64,000 bases of DNA, from NCBI GenBank assembly GCA_941918925.1, contig OW799236.1:106966562-107030561 (forward strand), in the 5' to 3' direction. Origin of the DNA: Phyto melanocephala. Its lineage: Eukaryota; Arthropoda; Insecta; Diptera; Rhinophoridae. Both the position numbers and the translations under genes were made by a program. The notes beneath the pieces were generated by a model. The model had not been told where the DNA came from and ran no database searches. It saw only the letters and a list, made by a program, of their open reading frames with translations. The stretch's first letter is position 1; each line of letters starts with the position of its first letter. This document shows positions 12,001-58,880 of this stretch, one piece after another.

Positions 12001-12204
12001 CTTTATGTCTTCACGCAAAGAAAAAATATGGTTGCGGTGACCATAATCGAAGAGCAACATACTATGATTGAATTGTATGATTATGGTTAAAACATATAAT
12101 GGTTACCAGTTACCAGTTATTATGTTTAATTAAAGTATCATTCAATAACCATATATCGGGTGTCCCAACTAGAACGCAATTTTTAAATTTTAAATAAAAC
12201 ACAG

Positions 12205-12635
12205 ATTATTTAAATTTTTAATCAGGCTTGAGTTCATATTAATATTCTTTATTTTTACAGGACAAAAATAGTGATAAATGAAAGATAATAACAAACAAAA
12301 GTAAAAAAGGGTTGCTGTTTGGTTAAAATTTCAATCTAACTCATTGTGGTAAAAATATATGAAATAGGAAAAACTAAAAAAAATTAGTTACCGAATTCAA
12401 TTAACATAAGTCCCGTGAGTTAAATAGATGATATTTACAACCAACATGTAACCACCGATCAGAGAGTGCTGATGATGAAATCGTAGCTGGTTTCGAAAAT
12501 GCATTCCACTCGGCTAGTGTCGGTAAAAATATAATTTTTCAAGATTTATTCTTTCATTTATCACAATTAAAAAAATTCTTTGTAAAAATAAAGAATATTA
12601 ATATGAACTCAAGCCTGATTAAAAATTTAAATAAT
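12205..12635 (+). mobile_element. Nested hammerhead-bearing element with inverted ends
   Basis: Inside the mariner, ATTATTTAAATTTTTAATC (12205 onward, continuing with AGGCTTGAGTTCATATTAAT) is mirrored at 12,548-12,635, an imperfect inverted repeat of about 85-95 bases. The middle carries a hammerhead-like motif (12,455-12,523). Order and wording match the 543-bp unit at 28-31 kb: ACATGTAACCACCGAT before the ribozyme and TGAACTCAAGCC after it correspond to TACATAGTAGTATACCGAT and TGAACTTAAGCC there. It is therefore a diverged, shorter relative, again with a partial inverted copy of its 3' part on the outside. No reading frame is present. Confidence 0.75.
12455..12523 (+). ncRNA. Hammerhead ribozyme-like motif, diverged copy
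   Basis: The motif reads CCGA, TCAGA, GAGTG, CTGATGA, T, GAAATC, GTAGCT, GGTTTC, GAAA, ATGCAT, TC, CACTC, GGCTAGTG, TCGG. Stem I pairs GAGTG with CACTC and CCGA with TCGG. Stem II pairs GAAATC with GGTTTC through one G-U pair. All core bases match the array copies, while the differences fall in loops or keep pairing (A to G in stem II). The U between CTGATGA and stem II is an extra base compared with the textbook core. Confidence 0.6.
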
Positions 12636-12799
12636 AGTTTAAACAGAAAAGTTCGACAAAATAAAAATTCAATTTAAAACACAGATATTAAAAAAAAAAA
12701 TCGTGAAACTTTATTATATCGTAAAGTAGACAGAATGAGGTTATGTATGGAACAATATATCGTGCAGATGGCCGCCGCGGCTTTGCTGGCACACACGCG

Positions 12800-13452
12800 A
12801 TCATTTAATGAAATTTTCAATGACCTTTTTGCATAAATGCTGCGGCATTTCATTAATGCAGCGTCCAATTTCCTCTTTTAAGGCTTGAGTCGTCGTCGGC
12901 TTATTCGCGTAAACCATCGACTTCAAAAAACCCCAAAGAAAAAAATCTAAAGGTGTTAAATCACACGATCTAGGCGGCCAATTCTGGGCTCCAAAACGCG
13001 AAATAACACGACCGGGAAATGACTGATGCAGCAATTGAATTGTTTCTCTGGCTGTATGACATGTGGCGCCACCTTGTTGAAACCACATGCCCTCCACATT
13101 CATTTCTTCAATTCTAGGCAAGAAAAAACTGGTTATCATTTCACGATACCGAACACCATTGACTGTTTGCGCTTGACCTGCCTCATTTTCATAAAAAAAA
13201 GGTCCAATGATTCCTCCAGCCCAAAAACCACACCACACAGTGACACGTTGAGGATGCATTTGCTTCTCGTGAATCACTCGAGGATTTTCCTCACCCCAAA
13301 TGCGACAATTCTGCCTATTGACGAAGCCATCAAGATGGAAATGTGACCCCAAATTGATCGCAATTTGCGAACTCTAGCCGCAAAACTTTCACCATTTTGG
13401 TAAAACAATTTCACAATGAGAATGTGTTGTTCATTCGTGTAGCGCTCCATTT
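12800..13452 (-). pseudogene. Mariner-type transposase, internally deleted and catalytically broken
   Basis: The start is MERYTNEQHILIVKLFYQNG, the N-terminal helix-turn-helix of this transposase family (13,452 downward). After about 36 codons the frame shifts and jumps to HFHLDGFVNRQNCRIWG, the block just after the first catalytic aspartate. Roughly 100-130 residues usually found between are missing, including the first aspartate (SDEAHF has become GSHF). The second catalytic block reads QQGGATCHTA, where the family has QQDGATCHTA, so this aspartate is glycine. The third, CDLTPLDFFLWG, is intact, followed by a YANKPTTTQALKEEI C-terminal part and ENF. A normal family member has about 330-350 residues; this keeps about 215. 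It cannot catalyse transposition. Confidence 0.92.
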
Positions 13453-13563
13453 TTACTAACCTCGTACCTTCTACTAGCAAACAATAACAATTGTTCAAAT
13501 TGCAAACAATGACACTTCGAATGGCGCCAAATTTAAAAATTGCGTTCTAGTTGGGACACCCGA

Positions 13564-15159
13564 TATATGATTATAGTTTAAATCGACGATCTTTGTTTCT
13601 TTACTGCAAATTATTGCAGTTTGTTTAAGTTAGATAAACTAATTGTACTTACCATTTTGATTACCATTTTTATGCCAATATTTTTTATATTTTCTCGTTT
13701 ATTTTTAAATTTTCATAATTTGTTAAAAATTTTTGTAATTTTTTTGACATCTTAAACTTTTAAAACAATGAAAATGTATTCAGCAAGAAGAGAACAGTTG
13801 AAATCAAAATATTATTATAAACAATCATTGTTTGATTGCTTTCTAATCATACTGTTGTCTCACATATTATTTTATGACTTGTAATTTTAAATGCTTTTGA
13901 ATATAATGTTGTTTTTGTCATAAAATTTTTTTTAAATCATACTATTTTTAAACGGCAATCATATCGAAATTTATACAAAAAGTAAACATTAAATGATAAA
14001 ACTCAAATAATTGCTTGATTATCGTGACAAAACCTATGATGAAATAAAAAAAATTTAACTATTGCTTGTTTTTGGCAACTTGGTTCTTTTTATATGCCCT
14101 TTTTTGGAAAACATCTCATTGCAATATTCTTCTGGTAAAAAAATACTTAAAAATTAAGTATTTAATAATTTAATACTAAAAATGTACTAATAATTTTTTC
14201 TTTCTTAAAAAGTACCAAAAATATGTCTGAACACCTTCTATTTAGAATAGAGAACCCCAATTTTCTTCGTTATATTTATTTGTGTAGAGAATACAAAAGT
14301 ACCAAAATATACTTTTTTAATACATTTTATCTCTGTAAACTTTTTTGATTTAAAAAAAGTACTTTTTATTTTGAAAGTACTTATTTATGGAATAGAAAAA
14401 GACGTGCTTAAATTTTTTCACTACGTGCATTAGCTTAGTCTTTATATATTTAATATTTTTAGCCGTTTTTATCCTGTTTGATACACGTAACATTAAAACT
14501 TTGTAAAATCTATATAAAGCATCGAACTCTTTTGTTTTCTTCTTCTAAATCGATAGAGTTATGTAATTCCTTAAAGATAAAATTTTTGCTAATCTTGTTT
14601 TATTTTTTTTGCCAATTTTTTGCTGATGTGTTTCTCTGCAATTATACTTTCAATAGACGAGACAATTTCCATGAAGCTCTAATAACGTGACTACGTGTTT
14701 GTTATGAGTATCTTGCGTGTATATTACACATCAGTAGCAAAAACGGCAAGAACAGCAAAAAAAAACATTATGTGAATCTAAATAGTATTTTTTTTTAAGC
14801 ATTTAGAGAATTCTTTGTAGAAAGAACTACAGAAGAACCTAAAGGAAACCTTTATTTTTATAAGTTGGTTGTTTTGGTTGTGGCCATCACAAAAAAGGGC
14901 GAGGAGAAGGGGTGGCAAGATATTAACAGACGTGCATATTACTCTATTTGAACGACCATGGTAAGGGCAAGGTAAAGTAAAAGAGTAAAATCTTTGAACA
15001 GAAAAATTTGTTTGGATTTGCTGTCTTTAGAGCGATTTTAATATTTTGGCCATTTTAACAGTCGGTTGAGGAATTAAGTTTTGTTTTTGGATTTTTGTTT
15101 TCATTCCAAACTTTGTTCCAAAATGTACACAAGATATAAGTTAGAAAGAAAAATATTTT
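13564..15159. other. Non-coding AT-rich sequence
   Basis: No gene or element boundary could be recognised. Poly-A/T and short palindromic words such as ACAATCATTGTTTGATTG occur near 13,820 without clear element ends. Confidence 0.5.
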
Positions 15160-23958: not shown

Positions 23959-24780
23959 ACAAAGTGGGCCAAAAGAAATCACCCTATTGGAAAATGCTAT
24001 TATTTCTGCAAATGGCGGCCAATGTAAAAATTTGTTTTGACATTTGTGAACTAGACAGATGTATAATACAACTACTAGCCTTGGAGCGTTACACTCCCTT
24101 TTTTGCATCGCAATTCGTCTGTGGTGTTGGCGCAGCGTCATAATGAGTGATGAGGCTCATTTCCACCTCAGCGGGTACATGAACAAGCAAAACTATCGAT
24201 TTTGGGGCACTGAAATTCCACGAGTAATGCACGAGGAGCCATAACACCCGCTCAAAGTGACTGCATTACGCTAGAGGAGTAATCGGGCACTTGTTTTACA
24301 GGATGCCGCTGGTTAAACGACAACAGAGGATGGTGCGTGCTATATGGCCATGTTAGCCGAGTGTTTTTTTACCGAAATTGAACAAATTAGGTGGTTTCAA
24401 CAGGACGTAGCAACGGCATGCAATGAGCGAGCCACAACCGATACTCTGAAAGCGGTGTTCTCAGGTCGCCTCATCTCTCGTTTTGGCGATTTACATTGGC
24501 CCGCAAGATCACCCTATTTAAGCGTTTCAGACTTTTTTGTGGCGTTTTTTTAAGTTCTGTGTTTACGTGAACAAGCCCGAGACCCTGGAAACCCCCAAGG
24601 ACAACATTCGACAATCAATTGTCACCAATTTGCCAATTTGGTCGATATCATCTTCTCGACTTGACCAATAAAATTCTAAAGGTTCAAATAAACATAATCA
24701 AAAAACAGAATCGAAGTTTTTCATTTAGAAAAAATGAGAGCCCAAAAAAAAATCGGAAGACTTCTTTTGGCCCACCTTGT
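23959..24780 (+). mobile_element. Mariner-type transposon, internally deleted
   Basis: The left end ACAAAGTGGGCCAAAAGAA is mirrored by TTCTTTTGGCCCACCTTGT at the right (24,762-24,780), one mismatch in 19. Between them lies a shortened, broken transposase on the plus strand. The element is about 820 bp against the usual 1.2-1.4 kb. A TA target duplication is blurred by one base on one side. It is a different subfamily from the one at 12.2 kb, judged by the ends. Confidence 0.85.
24130..24590 (+). pseudogene. Mariner-type transposase fragment
   Basis: Two frames form the catalytic core. The first reads IMSDEAHFHLSGYMNKQNYR with FWGTEIPRVMHEEP, containing the first catalytic aspartate. A frameshift follows. 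The second reads WFQQDVATACNERATTDTL with the second aspartate, then GRLISRFGDLHWPARSPYLS and VSDFFVAFF, where the third catalytic block (family DFFLWG) keeps its aspartate but loses LWG. The N-terminal DNA-binding part is missing: upstream of the first aspartate only about 20 related residues can be argued. Stops downstream end the reading before the family's C terminus. Confidence 0.85.
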
Positions 24781-26009: not shown

Positions 26010-26593
26010 TCTATATATATAAAAGTGAAACTCTGTCTGTCTGTGTGTGTGTGTTAGATATAGACTCCGAAACCGTAAAGCCGATCGAACTTAAACTTTG
26101 GAATGTTGTTGTACACATTCCAGGTAGTGTTAATGGGTGGTAAAAAGTGGGCGGGATTACGCCCATAAAAATAAGTTATAACTTTTAGCTACTTGCACTT
26201 GACCGATTTTTCTAAGACTTTGCACACATATTTAACTCTCATGATAATATAATTTCGTGATTAGAAAAGTAGGCAGTGCCACACCCATAAAAATAAGTTA
26301 TATTTTTCGCTACTTGCACTTGACCGATTTTTCTGAAACTTTGCACACATATTGAGCTGTCATGACTATTTAATTTCTTGATTAGAAAGGTGGGCAGGGC
26401 CACGCCTAAAAAAAATTCATAATTTTGAGGTACTTGCACTGGACCGATTTGTTTAAAACTGTGCATACATATTGAGCTGTCATGACTATAATTAGTTATA
26501 ATTTTTAACTTTTTTGCACTTGATAATCAATTAAAATTCAGAATGCATTTTTATTTGTTAAGGGGCGTAGCAACGCGTGCCGCTCTTGTCTAG
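26010..26593 (+). mobile_element. Non-autonomous Helitron with tandem internal units
   Basis: The 5' end TCTATATATATAAAAGTG follows an A, and the 3' end CTAG is followed by T, the A|TC...CTRR|T insertion rule of Helitrons. A short hairpin-like block AGCAACGCGTGCCGCT lies 10 bases before the end. Inside, units of about 120 bp repeat with TACTTGCACTTGACCGATTT (about 26,190, 26,310, 26,430), TTGCACACATAT and GCCACACCCATAAAAA. No Rep-helicase is encoded, so it relied on an autonomous partner. A shorter copy with the same ends lies at 57,329. Confidence 0.85.
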
Positions 26594-28407: not shown

Positions 28408-28420
28408 AATCTTATATTTC
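28408..28420. repeat. Left copy of 13-bp target-site duplication
   Basis: AATCTTATATTTC borders the hammerhead array on the left and recurs exactly at its right border. The first three bases may belong to the element at the right end, so the duplication is 10-13 bp. Confidence 0.75.
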
Positions 28421-28540
28421 AATTTTAATGTGAACCATTTTTTATTTTGGCTTAAGTTCATTTGTTTCTTTATTTAATTTTATAATTCAAATTAAATTAA
28501 ATTGTAACCATTTTAGGAATATTTTTTCTAAAAATTATTT

Positions 28541-28608
28541 CCGATATTAGCCGAGTGGAATGCATTTTCGAAATCAGCTACGATTTCATCATCAGCACTC
28601 TTTATCGG
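28541..28608 (-). ncRNA. Type I hammerhead ribozyme motif, unit 1
   Basis: In minus-strand reading: CCGATA, AA, GAGTG, CTGATGA, T, GAAATC, GTAGCT, GATTTC, GAAA, AT-GC-AT, TC, CACTC, GGCTAA, TATCGG. Stem I is CCGATA with TATCGG plus GAGTG with CACTC, separated by an internal loop AA/GGCTAA that could make the loop contacts of natural hammerheads. Stem II is GAAATC with GATTTC. Stem III has only three pairs with a two-base loop, so two copies may act together. Cleavage would fall after the C of TTC, before CACTC. The single U before stem II departs from the usual core. Confidence 0.75.
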
Positions 28609-29083
28609 TATACTACTATGTAACTTAAAATTCCTATTTATGTTACAATTGAATGAAATTTGAATTAGTGAATCTTAGTATTAATTTTCATATTTTGTTG
28701 AATATTTTATTTCACCTATCAAATGACAATTCATAATTCAACATGTTCATATTCTTCTATATTCGTAATACATTTTCGTTATGCTTTCAATATCCATCCT
28801 TTGGCTGGAATTATTGAAAACAAGGTTGTATTTACATTTTCATTTATATAAGTCCATCTAGGTGATAGACACTGAACAATGAATTCTTGAATGTCATTAA
28901 CACCGTGCCATGTGTGTTATAATTATATATTTATATTTTATTCGAACTTTTTTCTATATATTAAATTTTAATGTGAACCATTTTTTATTTTGGCTTAAGT
29001 TCATTTGTTTCTTTATTTAATTTTATAATTCAAATTAAATTAAATTGTAACCATTTTAGGAATATTTTTTCTAAAAATTATTT

Positions 29084-29151
29084 CCGATATTAGCCGAGTG
29101 GAATGCATTTTCGAAATCAGCTACGATTTCATCATCAGCACTCTTTATCGG
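29084..29151 (-). ncRNA. Type I hammerhead ribozyme motif, unit 2
   Basis: Same 68-base sequence as unit 1, 543 bp further on and in the same orientation. A transcript from this strand would be cut once per unit, giving 543-nt monomers. Confidence 0.75.
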
Positions 29152-29626
29152 TATACTACTATGTAACTTAAAATTCCTATTTATGTTACAATTGAATGAA
29201 ATTTGAATTAGTGAATCTTAGTATTAATTTTCATATTTTGTTGAATATTTTATTTCACCTATCAAATGACAATTCATAATTCAACATGTTCATATTCTTC
29301 TATATTCGTAATACATTTTCGTTATGCTTTCAATATCCATCCTTTGGCTGGAATTATTGAAAACAAGGTTGTATTTACATTTTCATTTATATAAGTCCAT
29401 CTAGGTGATAGACACTGAACAATGAATTCTTGAATGTCATTAACACCGTGCCATGTGTGTTATAATTATATATTTATATTTTATTCGAACTTTTTTCTAT
29501 ATATTAAATTTTAATGTGAACCATTTTTTATTTTGGCTTAAGTTCATTTGTTTCTTTATTTAATTTTATAATTCAAATTAAATTAAATTGTAACCATTTT
29601 AGGAATATTTTTTCTAAAAATTATTT

Positions 29627-29694
29627 CCGATATTAGCCGAGTGGAATGCATTTTCGAAATCAGCTACGATTTCATCATCAGCACTCTTTATCGG
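29627..29694 (-). ncRNA. Type I hammerhead ribozyme motif, unit 3
   Basis: Same 68-base sequence and orientation, again at 543-bp spacing. Confidence 0.75.
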
Positions 29695-30169
29695 TATACT
29701 ACTATGTAACTTAAAATTCCTATTTATGTTACAATTGAATGAAATTTGAATTAGTGAATCTTAGTATTAATTTTCATATTTTGTTGAATATTTTATTTCA
29801 CCTATCAAATGACAATTCATAATTCAACATGTTCATATTCTTCTATATTCGTAATACATTTTCGTTATGCTTTCAATATCCATCCTTTGGCTGGAATTAT
29901 TGAAAACAAGGTTGTATTTACATTTTCATTTATATAAGTCCATCTAGGTGATAGACACTGAACAATGAATTCTTGAATGTCATTAACACCGTGCCATGTG
30001 TGTTATAATTATATATTTATATTTTATTCGAACTTTTTTCTATATATTAAATTTTAATGTGAACCATTTTTTATTTTGGCTTAAGTTCATTTGTTTCTTT
30101 ATTTAATTTTATAATTCAAATTAAATTAAATTGTAACCATTTTAGGAATATTTTTTCTAAAAATTATTT

Positions 30170-30237
30170 CCGATATTAGCCGAGTGGAATGCATTTTCGA
30201 AATCAGCTACGATTTCATCATCAGCACTCTTTATCGG
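30170..30237 (-). ncRNA. Type I hammerhead ribozyme motif, unit 4
   Basis: Same 68-base sequence; last minus-strand copy before the orientation flips about 270 bases later. Confidence 0.75.
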
Positions 30238-30768
30238 TATACTACTATGTAACTTAAAATTCCTATTTATGTTACAATTGAATGAAATTTGAATTAGTGA
30301 ATCTTAGTATTAATTTTCATATTTTGTTGAATATTTTATTTCACCTATCAAATGACAATTCATAATTCAACATGTTCATATTCTTCTATATTCGTAATAC
30401 ATTTTCGTTATGCTTTCAATATCCATCCTTTGGCTGGAATTATTGAAAACAAGGTTGTATTTACATTTTCATTTATATAAGTCCATCTAGGTGATAGACA
30501 CTGAACCTAGATGGACTAGATGGACTTATATAAATGAAAATGTAAATACAACCTTGTTTTCAATAATTCCAGCCAAAGGATGGATATTGAAAGCATAACG
30601 AAAATGTATTACGAATATAGAAGAATATGAACATGTTGAATTATGAATTGTCATTTGATAGGTGAAATAAAATATTCAACAAAATATGAAAATTAATACT
30701 AAGATTCACTAATTCAAATTTCATTCAATTGTAACATAAATAGGAATTTTAAGTTACATAGTAGTATA

Positions 30769-30836
30769 CCGATAAAGAGTGCTGATGATGAAATCGTAGC
30801 TGATTTCGAAAATGCATTCCACTCGGCTAATATCGG
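30769..30836 (+). ncRNA. Type I hammerhead ribozyme motif, unit 5 (plus strand)
   Basis: Same motif, now on the plus strand. The predicted cleavage lies between 30,819 and 30,820 (ATTC|CACTC). It mirrors unit 4 across the palindrome centre. Confidence 0.75.
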
Positions 30837-31311
30837 AAATAATTTTTAGAAAAAATATTCCTAAAATGGTTACAATTTAATTTAATTTGAATTATAAAAT
30901 TAAATAAAGAAACAAATGAACTTAAGCCAAAATAAAAAATGGTTCACATTAAAATTTAATATATAGAAAAAAGTTCGAATAAAATATAAATATATAATTA
31001 TAACACACATGGCACGGTGTTAATGACATTCAAGAATTCATTGTTCAGTGTCTATCACCTAGATGGACTTATATAAATGAAAATGTAAATACAACCTTGT
31101 TTTCAATAATTCCAGCCAAAGGATGGATATTGAAAGCATAACGAAAATGTATTACGAATATAGAAGAATATGAACATGTTGAATTATGAATTGTCATTTG
31201 ATAGGTGAAATAAAATATTCAACAAAATATGAAAATTAATACTAAGATTCACTAATTCAAATTTCATTCAATTGTAACATAAATAGGAATTTTAAGTTAC
31301 ATAGTAGTATA

Positions 31312-31379
31312 CCGATAAAGAGTGCTGATGATGAAATCGTAGCTGATTTCGAAAATGCATTCCACTCGGCTAATATCGG
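31312..31379 (+). ncRNA. Type I hammerhead ribozyme motif, unit 6 (plus strand)
   Basis: Same motif, 543 bp after unit 5 on the plus strand. The unit is cut short about 160 bases downstream at the right end of the array. Confidence 0.75.
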
Positions 31380-31538
31380 AAATAATTTTTAGAAAAAATA
31401 TTCCTAAAATGGTTACAATTTAATTTAATTTGAATTATAAAATTAAATAAAGAAACAAATGAACTTAAGCCAAAATAAAAAATGGTTCACATTAAAATTT
31501 AATATATAGAAAAAAGTTCGAATAAAATATAAATATAT

Positions 31539-31551
31539 AATCTTATATTTC
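31539..31551. repeat. Right copy of 13-bp target-site duplication
   Basis: AATCTTATATTTC matches 28,408-28,420. Joining the flanks through one copy restores a continuous minus-strand reading frame region, which supports insertion. Confidence 0.75.
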
Positions 31552-33869: not shown

Positions 33870-36500
33870 AAGAAAATTTTTTTTTAATTTTCTAGTAAAA
33901 GATAATTTTTCAAAAATTTTCCAGAAAAAAGTATTTGTTCAAAATTTTCTAAAAAAATATATTGTTTCAAAATTTTCTAAAAAAGTAAATTTTTTCAAAA
34001 TTTTCTAAAAAAGATTATATTTTCAAAATTTTCTAAAAAAGATTATTTTTTCAAAATTTTCTAAAAAAGTTAATTTTTTCAAAATTTTTTAAAAAAGATA
34101 ATTTTTTCAAAATTTTCTAAAAAAGACAATTTTTTCAAAATTTTCTAAAAAAGATAACTTTTTCAAAATTGTTTAAAAAATATCACTTTTTAAAAATTTT
34201 GTAAAAAGATAATTTATTAAAAATTTTCTAAAAAAGATAATTTTTTCAAAATTTTTTATAAAAGATAATTGTTAAAAAATTTCTAAAAAAGATATAGTAT
34301 AAAAAATTTTCTAAAAAAAAAAAAGATAAAAAAGATAGATTAAAAATTTTTCAGAAAAGTAGAGTAACTTCGGGTAATGTGGACTACCGTTTTGTTTTTT
34401 TAAATTTTTTCCACAATATATATAGATATTAAATAAGTTGTGAACCAATAAATTAGCAAATGTATTCTCTAGTTGTTTTTTTGTTGAAAATTATTTACGT
34501 CAAAGGAAAAAAAAGTTATGAGAAAATATTGTAGGAAACCCAAATCCCAGCAATAAAAAAATTGGCGGGTAATGTGGACTACTGTGTGCGGGTAATGTGG
34601 AATACTACATAGTCCACATAGTCATTTGAATAGCATCTATGGCCCTTCTCATGTCATCTAGTTTCCATTTACGAATTTCTCCTTTTCTTTGGCATTGTTG
34701 TTAACAAAATCTACAATGGAATGTACATAGTTATTTGTCGGGTAATTTGGAGCAGTAGCCCACAATAATATACTTTGACAAGTCCACATTAGACGAACTT
34801 TGGTTTCAGTGGAAAAAAATTTTTTTTACCTATTATTTCTAAATATATTTAAATACTTACCAAATATATTCAAAACTAGTGTTCACTCTAACTGTATTAA
34901 ACAACCACACATTAAAATATACTATGTAACTGTATCAAAAATTTATTTTAACTTAAGCCGAAAAAAAAGTTGACCACGCGCATTAACTTTCAACACTAGA
35001 CTGAAAAGTCCACATATCAATTACTTACGAAAGCGCATGTGCAATTTTCGTTTCAAATGAACGGCAAAACGTACTTCAGTGCATTGTTATCTTTAATAGT
35101 TTCTGAAAAAACACACTGGTCCACATTAAACGCATAGTCCACAATACCCGAAGTTACTCTACAATATAATAAAAATTTTCCGAAAAAGATAATTTTTAAA
35201 AATTTTCTTAAAAGATGGTTTTTAAAAAATTTTCTAAAAAATTTTCCAGAAAAAGATCATTTTTTCAAAATTTGCTAGAAAAAGACAAGTTTTTAAAAAT
35301 TTTCTAAAAAAGATATCAAATTGAAAACGTTCTAGAAAAAGATAATTTCTAAAAAAATTTTTCAAGAAGAAAAAAATTGTTTCAAAAATTTTTCAGAAAA
35401 AGATATTTTTTAAAAATTTTCTAGAAAAAGATGATTTAAAACAAATATTTTTAAAAACATAATTTAAAAAAAAATTATTTATAAAGACATGATTTTTGAA
35501 AACAAGTTTTAAAAAACTATTTATTAAATTATAAATTTTTAAAAATTATTTATAAAAACATAATTTTTTAAAAATTATTTATGAAAATATAATTTTTTTT
35601 TAAATTATCTATAAAAATATAATTTTGCTAAAATTCTTTTAAAAATAACATTTTCCTTAGAAATAGAATTTCTAAAAAATGTTCTATAGCAAAGCAGTTA
35701 TTAAAAAATTTTAATAGGAAATATTACTGATAAAAAAATTATAATTTTTTTTATAATAAAAAATAAAAATAATAAAAAAAATGTAAATTAAAAAATTTTT
35801 ATTTAAAAAAAAGTGTAATTATCTTTAGAAATAAAACTTGCCGATAATAAACTTGAAAAAAAAATTTAAAGGCGAAACACAAATATAAAAAAAATATTAT
35901 TTAAAAACTATTTATAAATAGAAAATATTTTTAAAGGTTAAAGAAAATATTTTCGATACATTTTATATTAAAAAAAAATTCTGTCAAAAATTTTATATAA
36001 AATGAACATTTTTATAAAACTAAAGAAATCATTTTCTATAAGAATAAAACTTGTCAGAAATTTATTACAAAAAAAAAAAACTAATAAAAAATTTTGTTTA
36101 AATAAAAATTATTGAAAATTTTATAAAAAAAAATTATTTAAATATTCTATAAATAAAGGTTTATTGACATATTTCTGTAAAAAAAAAGTTTCTTTAAAAA
36201 TAAGACACTGCTAAAAATTGCAATTAAAAAACTTGGCTAAAGTTCTGTACAAATAAATCTTTCTAGAAAAGGAAAATTTGTGTAAAATTATTTAATAAAA
36301 AAAACTTTCAATATTTTCTGTAACATTTTTTTGCGAAAAATTTCTATCAGAAAAAAACATGTGTGTCAAGAGTCTTCTGTTAAAAGAAAAATTATCAAAG
36401 ATTTTCTGTTAAAAAATTTTATTGGAAAAGAGAAATTTCACCAATAATTTTCCTTAAAAAGAAATTATTCGAAAAAAATTTATAATTACGATTTTTTTTT
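33870..36500. repeat. AT-rich minisatellite, about 28-29 bp unit
   Basis: From 33,880 the unit AAAAAGATAATTTTTTCAAA plus ATTTTCTA repeats more than fifteen times with small changes, then resumes after the transposon at 34,362-35,159 and decays into A/T-rich sequence up to about 36,500. Similar words return at 37,600-38,060 after the DINE copy, so both elements inserted into one older array. Confidence 0.85.
34362..35159. mobile_element. TA-flanked DNA transposon with iterated end motif
   Basis: The ends GAGTAACTTCGGGTAATGTG and the complementary CACAATACCCGAAGTTACTC are inverted repeats with one mismatch over about 25 bases, each flanked by TA. Inside, GGGTAATGTGGA or its complement TCCACAT recurs at about 34,567; 34,590; 34,611; 34,738; 34,780; 35,000 and 35,110. 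The 798-bp element is non-coding. Its superfamily is unknown; the TA duplication fits Tc1/mariner-pogo types. Confidence 0.85.
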
Positions 36501-39559: not shown

Positions 39560-40485
39560 CATTAAGGTAAACAACGACGCTATAGAGAATATTAACGACT
39601 TTAGTTACTGAGGTAGCATAGGTCTCCCTACGGGCGGCACCACACAAGTCGTTCAAAACAGAATAAATAAGCACGCGCTGCTTTCGCCTCTTTATGCAAC
39701 TTCTGGCGCTCAAATGATCTATCTACTTCAGCAAAAATCAAATTGTATAACGCATGCTGAAACAACAAAGCTATGGAGAACGTAAACGACTTTGGCTACT
39801 TAGGTTAGGTGGCATAATTACCCCTACGGGCGGCGCCACAAAAGACGTTCAAAACAGAATAAATAAAACACGTGCTGCGTTCGCCTGTTTACCCAACATC
39901 TGGCGCTCAAATAATCTATCTACTTCAACAAAAATCAAAGTGTTTAACGCATGCATCAAGTCTGTGCTACTGCATAATTTCGAAACGTCTTTAGTCAGTT
40001 CTGAAATAAAGCAGATGCTACACGTTTTTACTAACCGATAACTGCGCAATATACTTAAGATCTGTTGGCTCCGAGTAATTTCAAATGAAAAGCTCCTTCA
40101 ACTTACAAGACAAGAAGACATTAACACCCAAATTAGAAGGCGCAAATATTTGTGGCTGGGTGACAGGCTGAGGAAGCGCTATGACGAAATTTGTCACGCA
40201 GCATTAGAGTGGAATCCACTAGGCTTCCAAAGACGAGGATGAACGCGAAACACTTGGCGTTGGACTATCCTGAATGAAACCGGCAAATCTTTTAACAAAC
40301 TTAGATACTTAGCTTCAGATCGAAATAATTGAGATTTTTTTGTGAATAGCCTATGGCCCTGATGGAATACGGCAAAAATTAAAAAAATTAATTATCATGA
40401 AGGACAAATAAATCTAATAAAGCACAACAAGATAGAAGATCGAAGTGATAGCAAGCCAGCTTTGAGGCTTTTAACGTTTTAACTG
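39560..40485 (+). pseudogene. LINE (RTE/endonuclease-RT type) C-terminal relic with internal duplication
   Basis: The reading GGATKDVQNRINKTRAAFAC, IWRSNNLSTSTKIKVFNACI, KSVLLHNFETSLV, then LRNILKICWLRVISNEKLLQ, LTRQEDINTQIRRRKYLWLG, RYDEICHAALEWNPLGFQRR, TWRWTILNETG and LASDR matches the C-terminal third of endonuclease/reverse-transcriptase non-LTR elements, where WxRxISNxxL and GRPRxTWRR are typical. A shifted partial copy of the RINKxRAAFA part precedes it (39,580-39,757 against 39,771-39,955). Several stops interrupt it. A 3' untranslated tail runs to about 40,485. Confidence 0.85.
39580..39955 (+). repeat. About 190-bp tandem duplication inside the LINE relic
   Basis: CTATAGAGAA...CGCATGC (39,580-39,757) and CTATGGAGAA...CGCATGC (39,771-39,955) are two diverged copies of one LINE segment, both with CCTACGGGCGGC and GTTCAAAACAGAATAAATAA. 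Confidence 0.85.
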
Positions 40486-50454: not shown

Positions 50455-51050
50455 ATATAGAATTGTATTTGTGAATTTTTTATTGAATTTTTATTGAATC
50501 TCTGAGTGATTTTGGACATACCCTTCGAGGTCACTCATATAGACCATATGGAAAAGGAAGACAATTGCTTGCTCTAACTACCTGTATAACTCACAATTTT
50601 GAATTGTATTTGTGATTTTTTTTTAAAAATTTTTGAAATTTGCACTATGAGAAAATCATTGAATCTCTGAGGGATTTTGGACATATTTGGGCAAACCCTT
50701 CTAGGTCACTCATATAGACCATATGGAAAAGGAGGACAATTGTTTGCTCTAATTAACTGTATAACTCAGAATTCTGAATTGTATTTGTGAATTTTTTAAA
50801 AAATTTTTAAGATTTGCACTATGAGAAAATCATTGAATCTCTGAGGGATTTTGGACATATTTGGGCAAACCTTTCGAGGTCACTCATATAGACCATATGG
50901 AAGCGGAAGACAATTGTTTGCTCTAATTAACTGTATAACTCAGAGTTCTGAATTGTATTTGTGAATTTTTTTAAAAATTTTTAAAATTTGCACTATGAGA
51001 AAATTATTGAATCTCTGAGGGATTTTGGACATATTTGGGCAAACCCAAAT
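50455..51050. repeat. Tandem repeat of about 175 bp, 3-4 copies
   Basis: TCACTCATATAGACCATATGG recurs with starts at 50,531, 50,706 and 50,880, and each unit shares GAATTGTATTTGTGA, TTTGCACTATGAGAAAATCA and GAATCTCTGAGGGATTTTGG with few changes. No coding frame. It may be a minor satellite or the inner repeat of a lost element. Confidence 0.88.
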
Positions 51051-58199: not shown

Positions 58200-58330
58200 G
58201 GGTGTCTTAAAATTAACGAAAGATTTCTTATAAATAGTTTTTAGTGTGTTAATTGTTTTTTAGGGTTAGCAACACTTTACTGCACAAATAGCGAAAAAAT
58301 TAAAAACTTGCGTTAATTTTGGGACACCCT
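58200..58330. mobile_element. Mariner-type MITE
   Basis: GGGTGTCTTAAAATTAACG at the left is mirrored by GTTAATTTTGGGACACCC at the right, in about 130 bp, with TATA beyond the right end. The GGGTGTCCCA-type end resembles that of the mariner at 12.2 kb, so a related transposase may have moved it. Confidence 0.75.
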
Positions 58331-58880
58331 ATATAACAACAAACATTTTGGATTTTTTTGTTAATATAAATTTTAATTATATATGTATGTTGTTTTTAAA
58401 CAAAATTTTTTTTCCTTTTGTTATTTCACAGTTTTTCAATGTTTTCATTTTGTTTGCTAATTATTTCACCACGACTGTTGGGTTTTTAATGTCTACTTAT
58501 AATATTCATTGCATTTGCTTAGAAACAAAAAGAGATAATTTTAATTTAACCATTTGTATGTACAACAACAAACATACTAAATTGTCAAATGATAGTTACA
58601 GCACAGCCGTATTGTTGCAATTGCTATTTTGTCATTTGGAATTTTTACCGGCTTTTTCAAAGTCTGCACAGAAATTAAATTTCTCAAACATGATTAAAAT
58701 TAATATTATTCAAGCAAAATAAAAATGTACTTTAATTTCTAAGGGCTTTTTATAAAATCACTTGAGGCATTAGGAAGAGTTAATTGTAATTTTTTAGCTT
58801 ATAGTTGTTTTTAAGCATTTTAGAACAATTTGAAAATTAAATTTTAAGTCAAAAGTCGACAGTGGACAAAATTCTATGTA
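58331..58880. other. Non-coding sequence with a long chance frame
   Basis: The longest uninterrupted frame nearby (124 codons, 58,348-58,722) is phenylalanine-, asparagine- and leucine-rich, as expected of T-rich DNA, and has no recognisable domain. Confidence 0.5.

Follow-up and report, generated by a model that had tools for sequence, protein, structure and literature searches.

The 64-kb window, which is the whole stretch of DNA analyzed here, is AT-rich (GC 20–37% in 2-kb steps) and contains one reading frame of at least 150 aa. At 28421–31538 it harbors insertion A, which is composed of six identical 543-bp units (GC 24%) in a head-to-head arrangement of four minus-strand and two plus-strand units. 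The left arm (28421–30506, minus strand) is a lag-543 identity run of 3.84 units of 543 bp, in which 1542 of 1542 positions are identical. Via a 9-nt repeated filler (CTAGATGGA, 30507–30515) at the head-to-head junction, it is joined to the right arm (30516–31538, plus strand) of about 1.9 units, whose identity extends to 31541. Both arms form an inverted repeat of 1026 nt with 100% complementarity. Thus, insertion A is either young or homogenized. It is flanked by a target-site duplication at 28408–28420 (AATCTTATATTTC; at least 10 and at most 13 bp) and 31539–31551, the two sites sharing a 13-nt common suffix; site pairs sharing at least 10 nt by chance made up 19 of 200,000 sampled pairs (draws inside the array were skipped). 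Six reading frames of at least 40 aa lie wholly inside insertion A, each of 42 aa, in agreement with an earlier sequence-only reading of this locus, which had noted no protein-coding frame.

Each unit carries one exact copy of a 68-base motif, and an exact-copy search bears out the six copies listed in that reading. Copies 1 to 4 lie on the minus strand (28541–28608, 29084–29151, 29627–29694, and 30170–30237), each being recovered as the exact motif, by a hammerhead descriptor, and by a model (R1) built from insertion A and the second insertion B alone with default filters. Copies 5 and 6 lie on the plus strand (30769–30836 and 31312–31379), with predicted cleavage after 30819 and 31362, the former coinciding with the position proposed earlier. 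The exact 543-bp spacing claimed for all copies holds inside each arm but not across the array, where the change from minus (copies 1–4) to plus (copies 5–6) had been missed.

The motif, CCGATA-AA-GAGTG-CTGATGA-T-GAAATC-GTAGCT-GATTTC-GAAA-ATGCAT-TC/CACTC-GGCTAA-TATCGG, displays the features of a type I hammerhead: the CUGANGA and GAAA boxes, three stems, a NUH cleavage site, and an open stem I. The CTGATGA and GAAA boxes, the 6-bp stem II, and the two-part stem I (GAGTG/CACTC and CCGATA/TATCGG) stand as previously drawn, every named stem pair being a standard pair. In contrast, stem III is not the 3-bp hairpin proposed before; it consists of A15.1-U16.1 and one further A-U pair with a palindromic UGCA cap or, in a dimer, of an 8-bp AAUGCAUU duplex. 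A permissive descriptor that allows one inserted base identifies seven loci in the window, whereas 60 dinucleotide shuffles yield none; it was composed once the motif was known and gauges rarity, not independent discovery. The same descriptor without the inserted base finds no locus in the window, while a plain pattern with up to three mismatches returns the identical seven loci and none in 100 shuffles.

The Rfam hammerhead search, one half of the refutation test set beforehand, returned no match at the gathering threshold in the whole window and none at E up to 10 in the element or in 131-base slices of insertions A and B. The extra base and the small size of stem III may jointly account for the missing match. 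Rfam matches to V_AS5 and mir-302 at 30440–30566 correspond to the inverted-repeat junction and were rejected, as were matches to SBWMV2 and snoRNA, which fall under their gathering scores. A ribozyme on the opposite strand was also rejected, the descriptor having found none.

A diverged seventh hammerhead, overlooked in the sequence-only reading, is located at 12455–12523 (plus strand) and has the same core including the extra U. It is part of insertion B, which is bordered by a target-site duplication of up to 12 bp at 12195–12206 (TAAAACACAGAT) and 12675–12686, the two sites sharing a 12-nt common suffix. The left inverted arm (12207–12285, minus strand) pairs with the right arm over 55 nt at 100% and over 19 nt at 95%, with a diverged stretch at about 12260–12266. 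The right arm (12286–12674, plus strand; the boundary between the arms is approximate) comprises an upstream part without match to insertion A, the ribozyme, and about 150 nt that can be aligned. Overall, the 543-bp unit matches 12455–12686 at 72%. Further diverged copies in the window were rejected, as model R1 finds only the same seven loci at E up to 10.

Compared with insertion A, the ribozyme of insertion B shows four substitutions and one inserted C. A U-A pair becomes U-G through one substitution in stem II and, by eye, through a second in outer stem I, with pairing retained in both cases. Also by eye, the inserted C either disrupts the sixth pair of outer stem I or leaves it with a bulge. 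The remaining two substitutions fall in the internal loop of stem I. No change affects the core, the extra U, loop II, or the palindrome, and the UAGC-GCUA complementarity between loop II and the stem I internal loop is the same in both insertions (chance expectation 5% of random loop pairs). Identity amounts to 64 of 72 columns in the ribozyme (three being gap columns just past it) versus 103 of 163 columns in the flank downstream of it (Fisher p 4e-5), a comparison that, like that of the ends below, covers two insertions in one window. No two-sided compensatory change occurs between A and B, two sequences in which one pair of 17 varies and for which a shuffle control is powerless. In insertion A, the ribozyme copy 5 sits at the tip of a rod formed by two arms of 41 nt each (30710–30750 and 30854–30894) that are 78% complementary; the duplex of the 70-nt ribozyme flanks reaches −27.3 kcal/mol, with 0 of 300 shuffles as low. 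This rod is not seen in insertion B, where 144 of 300 shuffles are as low.

An 81-codon open frame (12432–12674) runs through the ribozyme of insertion B to the end of the element. Insertions A and B differ in four codons within the ribozyme, and three of these differences alter the amino acid (by eye). On this ground, and because the frame matches no Pfam family and the same frame in insertion A soon closes, a coding role was rejected; the frame could be a relic of the reading frame of a Penelope-like element (PLE). Insertion B apparently sits inside a Tc1/mariner-like element, adjoining a 40-bp repeat that resembles the end of that element. Repeats of about 40–49 bp resembling Tc1/mariner-like terminal repeats occur at 12152–12191, 13520–13567, and 58287–58335 and are 80–83% alike. 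Two transposase frames on the minus strand (12804–13373 and 13277–13546) differ in reading frame. The transposase adjoining insertion B yields 5272 matches, and among the matches listed, those with a name come from several orders of arthropods; a scan of viral contigs gave nothing useful, and in a viral collection absence says little. Elsewhere in the window, a second short frame at 24317–24550 appears transposase-like by eye and has no Pfam family, and a frame at 39751–40038 contains Pfam DUF6451 (E 1.2e-12) and looks by eye like a fragment of a LINE-type reverse transcriptase. Tandem arrays are found at 26162–26490 (period 121 bp), 33870–34318 (period 28 bp), and 50511–51046 (period 174 bp).

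The ends of both insertions were compared in unit coordinates, counted from the first C of the ribozyme. The outer ends lie at unit position 188 (left) and 227–230 (right) in insertion A, and at 179–181 (left) and 220 (right) in insertion B. The right arm of insertion A hence outruns the left arm by 39–42 nt, leaving a tail of this length; the tail of insertion B is about 41 nt long. The left end of B maps to A 182–184, 4–6 nt from the left end of A, and its right end maps to A 232, 2–5 nt from the right end of A. If the duplication of B is taken as part of the element, the right end of B moves to 232 and maps to A 250, with a tail of up to 53 nt; likewise, with a duplication shorter than 12 bp, the right end would lie at up to 232, mapping 20 nt beyond the end of A. 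The ends thus resemble the layout of PLEs, an inverted pseudo-LTR arrangement with a tail of 30–40 bp on one arm. In the PLE copies described in an excerpt of PMC3846280, the inverted pseudo-LTR falls 37 bp short of the other one in length, the tail measures 31 bp, and the duplications span 8–10 bp; such a tail has been described as unique to PLEs (PMC11167929). Just past the right end of insertion A, TATAACACACATGGCACGGTGTTA is capable of forming a short AC-rich stem-loop (−4.0 kcal/mol). In the anole PLE, which cuts and extends both strands and prefers AT-rich targets, two adjacent internal starts bound the tail within an AC-rich stem-loop (PMC11167929).

The inner ends of insertion A map to unit positions 275 and 291. 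Both are distant from the predicted cleavage site at 51, and no trace of cleavage was seen at either of them. Thus, the template would have been a circle or an uncut multimer rather than a simply cut linear monomer. The pentanucleotide TCAGT at unit position 277 (e.g., 31045–31049) adjoins the inner end of the left arm.

Conservation in insertion B, the target-site duplications, and the PLE-like ends support the hammerhead architecture and the retrozyme/PLE assignment made in the sequence-only reading. Judged from the sequence, insertion A likely arose recently as a copy of a retrozyme/Penelope-type retroelement that is non-autonomous, encodes no protein, and is target-primed from both nicked strands. 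A Penelope-like reverse transcriptase, supplied in trans, would nick both strands of an AT-rich site and begin copying inside the RNA, with one start for the left arm and a neighboring start for the right arm. It would then run through several units per arm, and the two cDNAs would be joined at their inner ends. In this mechanism, the ribozyme, mainly in dimeric form, would release 543-nt units from multimeric transcripts. We file the element as non-autonomous PLE/retrozyme-type rather than as an autonomous PLE, since it deviates from retrozymes in size (543 nt) and perhaps in pairing (55%) and is devoid of a PLE reading frame. In addition, no PLE domain was detected in ten frames of the window, chosen by eye and searched against Pfam.

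The main rival is a linear template. Here, the array would be the pseudo-LTR part of an autonomous PLE family, copied from an uncut multimer with no circle involved, and the ribozyme would contribute little to insertion; this account overlaps the preferred one and is a real possibility, if somewhat short of probable. The inner ends slightly favor it, as 275 and 291 are close together and near TCAGT at 277, as if at the 5′ end of a transcript. We take TCAGT to resemble an arthropod transcription initiator, which would suggest a transcript start, yet this resemblance consists of a 5-base match. Moreover, the anole PLE uses mainly uncut RNA as its template, and its ribozyme mutants insert as well as the wild type does (PMC11167929). 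On the other hand, the autonomous PLEs described in part of PMC3846280 have a frame of about 840 codons between the pseudo-LTRs (842 and 838 aa), whereas the units of insertion A contain none above 42 aa.

For the non-autonomous retroelement that we favor, the question of ribozyme activity was addressed by folding. The 68-mer alone is modestly more stable than its shuffles (z −2.24, 5 of 200 as low), and its optimum (−16.9 kcal/mol) differs from the hammerhead drawn in the sequence-only reading. The active fold reaches −9.9 kcal/mol with stem III and −13.0 kcal/mol without it, because GAGUGC prefers GCAUUC, forming a rival helix (GAGUGC/GCAUUC) of −5.8 versus −4.7 kcal/mol. Within a 269-nt context, forcing the hammerhead yields −37.1 versus −44.6 kcal/mol. 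In the dimer, the active fold with the 8-bp stem III has an energy of −36.5 kcal/mol, compared with −33.8 for two monomer optima and −39.4 for the cofold optimum. Since stem III is palindromic, cutting would be mainly dimeric, and on these predicted energies the ribozyme probably works as a dimer. Consistent with this, an excerpt of PMC7229834 describes dimeric cutting in amphibian retrozymes that have a palindromic loop and a weak stem III. The extra U had been flagged as a departure from the textbook core; the base is present, but it is a weak objection to activity, as a review (PMC3705267), in its passage on the CChMVd hammerhead, puts trans-cleavage 3–4-fold higher once U replaces the extra A found at this place.

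These data also bear on whether the hammerhead is a fossil or decoy, kept by recent common descent and unable to cut because its stem III is weak and its core carries an extra U; we consider this rather unlikely. The active monomer fold lies 7 kcal/mol over the optimum (7.5 kcal/mol in context), Rfam gives no hammerhead match, and the ribozyme of the anole PLE is silent without its protein (PMC11167929). Against this stand the higher conservation of the ribozyme relative to its flank between A and B, the reported activity of the viroid hammerhead with U at position 10 (PMC3705267, as excerpted), and the dimeric cutting of the amphibian ribozymes with comparable stem III and loop (same excerpt of PMC7229834). 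It is very improbable that the units multiplied as satellite DNA via unequal exchange with the hammerhead as a passenger: perfectly identical tandem units would fit, but the exact target-site duplication, the head-to-head inversion, and the similar ends in insertion B demand an insertion mechanism.

Returning to the retroelement reading, circularization of the unit as a 543-nt RNA, as suggested earlier, is possible. In the predicted fold of the 543-nt circle, 55% of the nucleotides are paired; none of 40 shuffles is as stable (z −3.7), but the antisense circle (−92.2) comes close to it (−94.4). Retrozymes are reported to be more than 70% paired in an excerpt of PMC4918200. A farther-reaching scenario, which we regard as unlikely, is that a PLE enzyme circled the 543-nt ribozyme-made RNA repeatedly from both nicks and from its two native starts, producing inverted arrays in one step. 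The extra U would then be left over from a PLE start codon (AUG at A9-U-G10.1) and would mark the retrozyme as having arisen when a PLE lost its frame.

The ribozyme of insertion A resembles PLE-associated small hammerhead variants with a diminished stem III, which, in work by Lunse from 2017, are said to cleave as dimers. With the metazoan non-LTR retrozymes covered in an excerpt of Cervera and de la Pena 2020 (PMC7229834), the array shares a tandem layout with a single type I hammerhead per unit, a low GC content, the lack of a reading frame, and duplications of more than 4 bp. In contrast to these, its unit measures 543 nt rather than about 170–400 nt, a difference in size range and not in mechanism, and it displays the head-to-head inversion, the PLE-like tail, the extra core U, and a stem III of two A-U pairs. 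With PLEs (PMC3846280, in part, and PMC11167929) it has in common the tandem and inverted pseudo-LTR layout, the 30–40 bp tail, duplications of 8–13 bp, a minimal type I hammerhead, and an AC-rich start region. Unlike in PLEs, no RT/GIY-YIG frame lies between the ribozymes, and the frame opened by the AUG that the extra U creates runs for three codons before its stop (ATG AAA TCG TAG, by eye). The plus-strand hammerhead of CChMVd, a plant viroid, likewise has one extra base between A9 and G10.1, the natural base being A there and U here (PMC3705267, in the excerpted section). Exact-pattern scans of viral, bacterial/archaeal, and plasmid collections gave nothing useful, and with such record types absence is uninformative.

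Retrozyme-like repeats in insects are mentioned in the excerpted part of PMC7229834; thus, this kind of element is known. PLEs are called strong or likely candidates for moving animal retrozymes in the literature considered here, chiefly on the grounds of shared type I hammerheads, tandem layout, and co-occurrence. With a non-coding hammerhead array and a diverged second insertion that carry PLE-like ends, this link between retrozymes and PLEs becomes directly testable. The conserved U at core position 10 represents a natural counterpart of the viroid mutagenesis result. One apparently young copy unites the hallmarks of retrozymes, the hallmarks of PLEs, and a natural U insertion.
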